This document shows, in pieces, positions 13,581 to 34,959 of a stretch of 43,020 nucleotides of DNA (its first letter is position 1; each line of letters starts with the position of its first letter). The translations under genes and the position numbers were made by a program. This DNA is from an uncultured Paraprevotella sp. (lineage in GTDB: Bacteria; Bacteroidota; Bacteroidia; Bacteroidales; Bacteroidaceae), in assembly GCA_944321975.1 (NCBI GenBank), contig CALUNJ010000011.1, forward strand, positions 1-43,020. The letters run 5' to 3'. The notes under the pieces were generated by a model that saw only the letters and a list, made by a program, of their open reading frames with translations, had not been told where the DNA came from and did not search any database.

Positions 13581-13620
13581 ATATCGTATCTTATTCTTTC
13601 CTATTCTGCTAAAATTTGGG

Positions 13621-13628
13621 CAAAAATA
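13621..13628 (-). promoter_or_regulatory. Candidate -7 element of the ileS operon
   Basis: Minus-strand TATTTTTG, 40 bp before the ATG at 13580, in an A/T-rich tract. The -33 element is not clear. It places the start codon at 13580 rather than at the upstream in-frame ATGs. Confidence 0.5.
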
Positions 13629-13948
13629 CAATTTTTTTTTCATTCTCTCGTGTATTTCAGAAAAAAACCGCAAGCCACATGAGGAGCACCAACAGGCACC
13701 CAAAAGGAAAGCGCGGAGGTTTGTAAAGGAAACAACAAATTACCGGAAAAAGGAGGCGACCCGAAAAGTCCCCGGTCCGCAAACCCGGACACCCCGCGGG
13801 GAAGCAAAAATCCGGCCGGCAGCAGCCGCACACCCGGAAACGAGGCAAGCCCACTCATGGCGGAAAGCATCGCAGCGGAGGTTTTCGGGACAAACACGCA
13901 GGGGCACACGGATTTTGAACAACACCGGCAAGAGCAACCGGAAATTTT

Positions 13949-14020
13949 CGCTTGAGAAAAAAATGTGAATCGCTTGAAAAAAAAACGTGAATCGCTTGAG
14001 AAAAATCCATGCGCCTCAAG
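13949..14020. repeat. 22-bp-pitched repeat array A
   Basis: The core CGCTTGAG starts at 13949, 13971 (last base A) and 13993, exactly 22 bp apart. Units one and two agree at 20 of 22 positions. Unit three keeps the first 13 bases (CGCTTGAGAAAAA) and then diverges. A further 22 bp on, at 14015, CTCAAG is the same core in inverted orientation. Each unit has an A-tract of 5-9 bases, so the tracts are phased at about two helical turns. The same core and pitch recur at 34709-34760. Confidence 0.85.
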
Positions 14021-14039
14021 ACAAGGTATAACCACCTGA

Positions 14040-14056
14040 TTGCAAATTAATTGCAA
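14040..14056. repeat. Paired TTGCAA palindromes
   Basis: Two copies of the self-complementary hexamer TTGCAA (14040-14045 and 14051-14056) lie 11 bp apart, one helical turn, 20 bp from the end of array A. Operator-like geometry, but the short length makes chance possible. Confidence 0.4.
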
Positions 14057-14214
14057 AAACACCCCATCCGGAGGGTTTACAAGGAGCAGGGGGGACACTC
14101 TCACCCGGCAACCCGCCTGCGGCGAAAGAGAGAGCTGGCCGGAGAGGAAGGCCGGAAGCCCATCTTCCTGAAAAATCCGCCATAAAAAAAACGATATAAA
14201 AGTGCCGGAAAGGC

Positions 14215-14254
14215 AAAAGCCGCACCTCCGGGATTCCCCCAAGAGGCACGGCTT
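14215..14254 (-). terminator. Intrinsic terminator of the FAS1/SusCD operon
   Basis: Minus-strand transcript: a 12-bp stem (14254-14243 with 14228-14217, two G-U pairs), a 14-nt loop that can itself close GGG/CCC, then four U residues. It lies 40 bp after the stop of the last SusD gene, with a longer U-run further downstream. Confidence 0.75.
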
Positions 14255-14293
14255 CCACACGTAAACATATGCTCTATCTGAAAAACACAACGG

Positions 14294-33790: not shown

Positions 33791-34447
33791 TCAATCCAGC
33801 CCTTCCAGCATATTTTCTACGGTGAACCGGCCAAAATCGGGGATCACCACGTCGCACAAGTCCGCGATCGTCCCGGCCGGATTCGTCGTGGAAAGCCCCA
33901 CCACCTTCATGCCGGCCGCCCGCCCGGCCTTCAGCCCGTTGAACGAATCCTCGAACACGACGCAACGCCCCACCGGCAGCCCGAACACCTCCGCTCCCAG
34001 CAGATAGCAGTCCGGATCGGGTTTGGAACGCGCGAAATCCTCCGAAGTCAGGATGCGGTCGAAATAGCCTTCAAATTCCGGGTGCTTCCGATACACGTTG
34101 TGCATCTTCTCCTGATTGGAGCTGGTCACCACGGCGGTGCGGATTCCCGCCTGCCGCAAGTCCTGCAAGAACCGCTCCACTCCGGGCACATAGGTGTAGT
34201 CCATGTCCCGCTCAAAAGCGTCCAGCCCGGCTGTGATGGCGCGTTGCAGCTCCTCCTGCCCCGGAAACCATTTTTCAAAGATCTGCACCAAGGTCTGCCC
34301 CTTGATTTTCTGCTCGAAATGGGGCACTTCCGGATGATACAACCGTCCCATTCCGCCCCAAAACACCGTGTATTGCGGCTCGGTGTCGAACACCACCCCG
34401 TCTAAATCAAACAAAGCTGCCGCCCGTCTGTCCTTTCTTGTTTCCAT
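33791..34447 (-). CDS. HAD-superfamily phosphatase / beta-phosphoglucomutase-like
   Basis: 218 residues from the ATG at 34447. The frame is open 31 codons further, but that part spans the promoter. HAD motifs: I, FDLDGVVFDTEP (nucleophile Asp and acid/base Asp two residues on); II, VVTSSN; III, the Lys of SKPDPDCY; IV, VVFEDSFNG. An alpha-helical cap between motifs I and II (class C1) puts it with beta-phosphoglucomutase and phosphoglycolate phosphatase-like enzymes. It is a soluble, Mg-dependent phosphate-transfer enzyme; the sugar or other substrate is not decidable. It has its own strong promoter and a ~20-nt leader. The panB promoter follows its stop. Confidence 0.9.
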   Translation of the reverse strand: METRKDRRAAALFDLDGVVFDTEPQYTVFWGGMGRLYHPEVPHFEQKIKGQTLVQIFEKWFPGQEELQRAITAGLDAFERDMDYTYVPGVERFLQDLRQAGIRTAVVTSSNQEKMHNVYRKHPEFEGYFDRILTSEDFARSKPDPDCYLLGAEVFGLPVGRCVVFEDSFNGLKAGRAAGMKVVGLSTTNPAGTIADLCDVVIPDFGRFTVENMLEGLD

Positions 34448-34474
34448 TCCAAAAACTCTCTTCGTTTCACGGCG

Positions 34475-34506
34475 CAAAGTTAAGAAAAAGCCGCCGCCAG
34501 CACAAA
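34475..34506 (-). promoter_or_regulatory. Promoter of the HAD phosphatase gene
   Basis: Minus strand: TTTG (34506-34503), 20-bp spacer, TAACTTTG (34482-34475). Excellent consensus match; it fixes the ATG at 34447 as the start. Confidence 0.75.
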
Positions 34507-34708
34507 CCCACGGAGCCGAAAAATCCGGAACGGCAGGCAAATTCCACGTCCTTCCCCGCCCCGGCGCGCTCCATATTCCTTACATTCAAGTTGAGACTCC
34601 CCATCACAAGCCGCCCCAACGCCACAAGCCCCCCAAACGCCTCCGGGCGATGCCGGGGAAGGCCGTCCCGACCGGCATTTCCGGACGGCATGAAGAAACC
34701 AAATTTCC

Positions 34709-34765
34709 CTCAAGCGATCCATCCGTTTTTCTCAAGCGAAAAAAAAGTTAATCGCCTGAGAAAAA
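34709..34765. repeat. 22-bp-pitched repeat array B
   Basis: CTCAAGCG starts at 34709 and 34731; the opposite-orientation core CGCCTGAG starts at 34753. All are exactly 22 bp apart. Read on the minus strand, the unit ending at 34738 shares the 13-mer CGCTTGAGAAAAA with array A. The plus-strand segment 34747-34765 matches 13987-14005 of array A at 17 of 19 bases. A- or T-tracts are again phased. Confidence 0.85.
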
Positions 34766-34840
34766 CAGGAGCTTTCCAAACCCCTGGGAACCAAGCCGTA
34801 AGCATTATCTTAAATTTCAACATTCCACCCCAAAGCCCCG

Positions 34841-34889
34841 CCCTTTGGACACGCCGTAAGGGAGCCTGCGGGCCTGCGGGCTTTTTTTT
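34841..34889 (+). terminator. Tandem hairpins with U-tract upstream of the ligase gene
   Basis: A small hairpin (CCCTT/AAGGG, 34841-34862) is followed directly by a 7-bp GC-rich stem (AGCCTGC/GCGGGCT, 34863-34882, one G-U pair, 6-nt loop) and seven T residues. It has the form of an intrinsic terminator on the plus strand, yet no gene precedes it on that strand. It may end a short untranslated transcript. Confidence 0.6.
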
Positions 34890-34923
34890 GTTCGAAAGCC
34901 GCGAAAATGTTCACCATTTTTTG

Positions 34924-34931
34924 TATTTTTG
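34924..34931 (+). promoter_or_regulatory. Candidate -7 element of the ligase-addAB-like unit
   Basis: TATTTTTG, 28 bp before the ATG at 34960 and 35 bp after the terminator-like hairpin. No clean -33 TTTG. Confidence 0.5.
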
Positions 34932-34959
34932 CCAGCAACAACGAAGATACCCCAACGAG

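Follow-up and report, generated by a model that had tools for sequence, protein, structure and literature searches.

A 22-bp-phased intergenic array carried by an ISL3/ISAon1-type MITE is evenly spaced along the DNA of a Paraprevotella genome

The DNA analysed here (the window, 43,020 nucleotides at its full length) belongs to an uncultured Paraprevotella sp. represented by one MAG, which is 86% complete and consists of 2,645,963 bases in 171 unordered contigs. Genes were called using our own script, and the identities of flanking genes were assigned with Pfam. Two short arrays were found in the window (Table 1), and by these gene calls both are intergenic, in agreement with an earlier note that had placed them in gene-free DNA. 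Array 1 is flanked by two minus-strand genes, one for a class I tRNA synthetase (ileS-like) and one of the SusD family; the neighbours of array 2 are divergently transcribed and encode a HAD hydrolase and an AMP-binding enzyme. In array 1, forward sites are located at 13949 (CGCTTGAG), 13971 (CGCTTGAA) and 13993 (CGCTTGAG), the inverted site CTCAAGAC follows at the next 22-bp step (14015), and the step before the first of these sites, at 13927, holds a weak fifth one, GGCAAGAG. The 22-bp steps and the inverted last site had been correctly described, but the three forward cores had been taken as identical, and the second is CGCTTGAA, not CGCTTGAG. Array 2 carries CTCAAGCG at 34709 and 34731 and an inverted site, CGCCTGAG, at 34753, all at exact 22-bp steps, and the next step on either side has a very weak site (34687, GGCATGAA; 34775, TCCAAACC); its 22-bp pitch had been recognised, and its inverted last site was absent from the earlier note. 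Neither array showed a flank profile match or MITE ends, so that both were assigned, by core, to the core-only class described below. The single 8-mer, with up to one mismatch, was not enriched in the window (30 matches against a mean of 39.15 in shuffles). The window ends in an IS whose terminal inverted repeat is that of the array-carrying MITE found elsewhere in the genome. The 21-base end motif of this IS also lies less than 90 bases from the ends of contigs C2 and C15, and the IS copies at contig ends look as if the IS broke the assembly.

Table 1. Coordinates of the arrays, their intergenic regions and the truncated IS in the window
Feature	Position	Strand	Remark
Array 1, element core	13927..14022	+	Five 8-bp sites in exact 22-bp register; core profile match C11:13998
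Intergenic region with array 1	13581..14293	.	Own gene calls and Pfam
Array 2, element core	34709..34760	-	Three sites 22 bp apart; core profile match C11:34734
Intergenic region with array 2	34415..34959	.	Own gene calls and Pfam
Right end of ISL3/ISAon1-type IS, cut by contig end	42946..43020	-	End as in the intact IS of L200

The shared unit of these arrays was defined with 132 intact cores from 54 contigs of the same genome (1,655,181 bp). Each core consists of up to five 8-bp sites (CGCTTGAG or CTCTTGAG, or their reverse complements), which are held in an exact 22-bp register and are free in orientation. Four or five in-phase sites were present in 92 of the 132 cores, three in 31 and fewer in 9; altogether 507 of 542 sites were in phase, and 774 of 878 site-to-site distances were multiples of 22, with 31 off by one. 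These distances bear out the earlier proposal of an exact two-turn phasing compatible with proteins on one DNA face. In line with the other option raised at that time, curved DNA, the predicted curvature of the cores exceeds that of the controls: with approximate wedge parameters, the mean predicted ratio of end-to-end distance to contour was 0.878 for the 132 cores, 0.926 for 177 core-free intergenic stretches and 0.950 for shuffles. The half-site around the searched letters approximates TCGCTTGAGAAAAA (334 sites of the first set, four of its positions being fixed by the search pattern itself). Orientation strings were diverse, with 32 distinct strings among copies with flanks and 24 among core-only copies, partly shared. 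Many copies form a large palindrome and others, for example FFF and RRR, do not, while the 8-bp unit itself is asymmetric. At the centre of CTCNNGAG, TT was counted 70 times, AA 50 times, CT 3 times and AG once, with no AT or TA step. The 8-mers thus seem to flip orientation in place, and the occurrence of TT or AA centres without AT/TA intermediates suggests that inversion takes place in one step, for which template switching within the palindrome is a possible route. A conserved hairpin RNA or intrinsic terminator was also considered for the core and rejected, because there are many distinct orientation strings and several are not palindromic.

The array is present in high copy number. The 132 intact cores were found in 1.655 Mb, which extrapolates to about 211 per genome. 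In the whole source genome, the exact pattern CGCYTGAR-N14-CGCYTGAR occurred 83 times compared with 0 for the reversed control, and with up to two mismatches 317 times compared with 16; CGCYTGARAAAAA gave 203 matches compared with 1 for its reversed control. In the 1.057 Mb of the first set, runs of at least three phased sites at a step of 22 numbered 22 with the strict motif and 32 with a relaxed one, and none was found at any of the steps 18-21 and 23-27. The two outcomes named earlier as speaking against the array, chance frequency and equal occurrence inside coding sequence, were both examined in the source genome and a family sample of 201 genomes, and neither was observed: the motif pair was far above chance across the source genome, and none of the 132 cores lay in a called gene.

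Full copies of the array are ISL3/ISAon1-type MITEs with inverted ends, which have multiplied in one Paraprevotella lineage. Pairwise matches among 47 well-scoring copies end within about 340 bp on one side and 180 bp on the other side of the core, and aligned copies are about 77% identical. Alignment of the 26 best copies revealed the inverted ends GGGGCAGTAGRAATTTAGYGGGGA. Both ends were visible, with at most 7 mismatches of 24, in 15 of the 132 core-bearing copies, giving lengths of 300-497 bp; perfect target duplications of 8 bp, the length usual for ISL3, border four of them (C1:17722, C18:19381, C22:29307 and C28:24759). The relative G069 contains an intact IS (L200), about 1.4 kb long, whose ends are almost those of the MITE and which matches DDE_Tnp_ISL3 and ISAon1. 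As the MITE is too short to encode a transposase, an IS of this type would be the candidate autonomous mobiliser; the source genome itself holds a transposase fragment at C92. The two window arrays are members of one amplified transposon-borne family. Their differences in orientation and copy number, once offered as an argument against duplication, lose that meaning, because orientation varies freely within the family while the register is kept.

The flanks and inverted ends of the MITE are more decayed than the array. The 26 best copies of the first set served to train core and flank profiles, which were then applied unchanged to a second set. The second set contains 48 cores, of which two, in the first 20 kb of C15, also belong to the first, and the gap between them was counted once. 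No recognisable flank was left in 52 of the 132 cores. In the other 80, the core was nearer its consensus than the left flank in 75 copies and than the right flank in 59, and column agreement was 0.66 for the left inverted end compared with 0.85 for the core. We considered whether core conservation could be an artefact of a core-based search and rejected this, since profiles of the flanks only recovered few core-less loci; the left profile gave 53 loci in the first set (1.057 Mb) and 25 in the second, and the right profile 50 and 23. Only three copies with flanks were without an intact core (C43 and C55 in the first set, C33 in the second); further core-less hits of the right profile lie at the contig ends of C11, C2 and C4 (first set), of which those of C11 and C2 are read as IS ends. 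The surroundings of the 52 core-only copies showed no mutual similarity at E 0.001. Their intergenic regions are long (median 511 bp, n=48, compared with 675 bp for copies with flanks, n=70, and medians of 179-223 bp by gene-pair type for core-free regions measuring 100 bp or more), which fits old insertions. Retention of the core for mobility alone would predict that the inverted ends persist too, whereas they are more decayed. Flank divergence may partly reflect different source copies.

The cores are evenly spaced. The 80 gaps between neighbouring intact cores, measured within the unordered contigs of one MAG, have a mean of 11.3 kb, a median of 10.2 kb and a CV of 0.354, and they range from 5.17 to 23.0 kb, with none below 5 kb and one below 6 kb. 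For comparison, the same number of elements was placed in intergenic regions of the same contigs under three nulls (unweighted, weighted by length or by gene-pair type; 5000 draws each). The draws gave a mean CV of 0.69-0.74, never below 0.50, and on average 26-30 gaps below 5 kb, never fewer than 13, compared with 0 observed. The 5- and 6-kb limits were derived from a first, exploratory spacing test of 58 elements; the contigs scanned later repeat the even spacing (26 gaps, CV 0.34, minimum 5.17 kb). In a looser list of 89 elements, which includes the C43 copy, two gaps (3.7 and 4.4 kb) fell short of 5 kb and the CV was 0.38; four nulls were drawn 3000 times each, and no draw was as even. The copies in C43, C55 and C33 were left out of the intact-core list because they gave no core profile match. 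Only two copies come within 5 kb of an intact core, and both have broken cores: C43:7383, at distances of 3.7 and 4.4 kb, and C33 at about 560, at 4.3 kb. The remaining broken copy, C55, is 0.1 kb from the contig end, and the one neighbour visible to it is 9.9 kb away; with just three broken-core copies, the association of closeness with breakage is a weak one. We also considered, and rejected, that the assembly had lost close pairs: the matches listed outside the sample formed 40 clusters on 38 contigs, and the only gaps among them were 10.0 and 9.6 kb. Two of the 34 first-set contigs carry no element, C37 (L134; 20.0 kb read) and C49 (L146; 19.3 kb read); by eye, the former resembles a polysaccharide biosynthesis region and the latter seems to hold ordinary chromosomal genes.

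In quantity, the repeat family was found only in the source MAG. Full-copy matches occurred in 3 of 18 genomes of the genus, namely 69 in the source genome, 3 at two places in G118 and 1 in G103. G118 and G103 share a core at one common locus, where they are 98% identical, and this core is decayed in G069. The core is therefore older than the expansion, which has so far been seen in one lineage. In G069 the gene next to the decayed core is 93% identical to its counterpart in G118, so that no genus-wide constraint on the core is indicated. The second G118 place lies in DNA 98% identical to the source genome (L060; G118 C28:1000-2460 and G000 C96:8631-10094), whereas another G118 region differs from it by about 22%, which points to recent exchange or mixed binning. 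No run of three strictly phased sites, at any step from 18 to 27, was present in the 394,005 bp sampled from G118, G103 and G022. Among 84,980 species genomes, a set from which records of or near the source genome are possibly absent, the strict pair pattern gave 3 stretches, in two Paraprevotella MAGs. A looser pair pattern matched 15 genomes of the 201-genome family sample, which includes the source genome; by eye, 12 of these 15 genomes carried other sequences, and the array was present only in the source genome, G118 and G103. An exact 22-base pattern had no match in viral contigs, and a distant blastn search of plasmids and phages with one 451-base copy had none. G118 also carries a different, modular family of dispersed repeats, for example L155 (C1:57180-57600) and L158 (C2:37748-38167), in which some copies have ISL3-like ends and copies occur less than 1 kb apart. 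Separately, an ORF at L263 that resembled cas1 by eye had no Pfam match, and this assignment was dropped.

Several known systems share single features with this family. The sites of matS/MatP, Noc and SlmA are short, occur in many copies along the chromosome and are read by one protein; they are single palindromes with uneven or regional distribution and are not known to be transposon-borne. The ISL3 family, ISAon1 group, shares the inverted ends, the 8-bp duplications and a matching IS in relatives, but the IS does not contain the 22-bp array, which survives longer than the inverted ends. Judging from the available text of the sources, the nearest architecture is BrickBuilt, a MITE of Porphyromonas gingivalis with 19 copies in ATCC 33277 and reported promoter activity (PMC4596501), and the nearest proposed function is that of BIMEs. 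As described there, BrickBuilt is a MITE from the same order, always intergenic, with an internal tandem array of short period (23 nt) and a leader and tail with inverted ends (PMC4596501). Its ends are near GAGACCTTYGCA and its 23-nt direct repeats have no spacer (PMC4596501), whereas the present family has the ends GGGGCAGTAG, a 22-bp register, about 200 copies, free orientation and even spacing. Chromosomal spacing is not mentioned in the available BrickBuilt text, in which the word 'spacing' occurs 0 times (PMC4596501). REP/BIME elements have more than 100 intergenic copies, with regularly spaced units of alternating orientation in each element, and a role in chromosome organisation has been proposed for them (PMC2817692); BIME-2, which is bound by gyrase, might contribute to genome organisation (PMC6379681). 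However, the REP units of gammaproteobacteria are palindromes tied to RAYT (Y1) transposases, while the carrier here is an ISL3-type MITE, and Y1 transposase (PF01797) had 0 matches in the source genome (86% complete). The available portions of PMC2817692 and PMC6379681 say nothing of even distances from one BIME to the next, and the words 'spacing' and 'evenly' are absent from those of a MITE review (PMC10969869). The literature searched contained none of four motif strings, and among its titles and abstract openings we recognised no evenly spaced intergenic repeats of this kind.

We propose that the MITE has been domesticated and provides evenly spaced protein-binding platforms for chromosome organisation, a reading to which we give about an even chance. 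Each array would be a platform on which a putative DNA-binding protein assembles on one face of the DNA, probably cooperatively, with two helical turns per site and either site orientation accepted. Each platform would serve about 10 kb, for example as an anchor of a loop or supercoil domain, and for this reason the cell would keep the platforms evenly spaced; the mobile element would thereby have become a genome-wide spacing mark. The fuller version, in which about 200 protein-assembling arrays are held by selection at intervals of about 11 kb and define chromosome loops or supercoil domains, is put forward only tentatively.

The main rival is target immunity, in which the MITE or its transposase avoids insertion within several kb of a resident copy and the spacing is a selfish by-product. 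Tn3, Mu and Tn7 show such immunity, from which a minimum distance follows directly; the family is indeed carried by a transposon, and its 22-bp array recalls the 22-bp transposase sites known at Mu and Tn7 ends. We nevertheless consider this explanation unlikely, as it leaves unexplained that in dead copies the core persists longer than the inverted ends, and core-only copies are also distant from those with flanks (27 pairs of the first set, minimum 6.9 kb). In addition, an IS with the same ends lies about 160 bp from a core in C15, and in relatives, elements that have such ends but other interiors lie close together, with 7 of 21 adjacent gaps below 5 kb, although two of these (32 and 88 bp) are possibly the ends of one element. 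In the literature records available to us, no report of immunity for ISL3 was found. Purging, in which close repeats are lost by recombination or are harmful together and the core itself does nothing, would draw on the fact that the copies share repeated sequence and that close pairs of repeats can recombine; it appears improbable, because identity is just ~77%, the retention of the core is not accounted for, and direct and inverse neighbours are equally distant (15 same-orientation and 14 opposite-orientation pairs, minima 6.0 and 6.2 kb), yet deletion would remove direct pairs only.

We regard as more improbable still that the arrays are ordinary regulatory sites, i.e., regulator-binding arrays or transcription terminators spread by the MITE. 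They are always intergenic, and their phased direct repeats resemble the sites of some regulators, such as LytTR proteins. Convergent genes are in excess around them: 118 cores between two called genes comprised 66 co-directional, 43 convergent and 9 divergent cases, compared with 265, 88 and 122 among all 475 intergenic regions of at least 100 bp. However, cores are rare between divergent genes, where promoters lie, and the convergent excess and divergent deficit alone would suit any promoter-avoiding MITE. There is also no preferred strand relative to co-directional neighbours (20 same, 17 opposite; first set), even spacing is not expected of such sites, and at gathering score Rfam gave no family in positions 12500-36000 of the window and, in five 20-kb stretches that carry full copies, nothing but two tRNAs.

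In conclusion, the observation made in the earlier note is confirmed and proved to be part of something larger, and its interpretation is partly supported; the MITE around full copies, the roughly 200 copies and the even spacing had been missed. To the best of our knowledge, no sequence marks are known at the borders of the roughly 10-kb topological domains inferred for bacteria. If our fuller proposal is true, domain size in this bacterium would be written directly in the sequence. An array that outlasts its transposon and, in the sample, stays more than 5 kb from the next intact one may be a sequence ruler of domains or an immunity mark that is active in dead copies, and either would change the view of MITEs.
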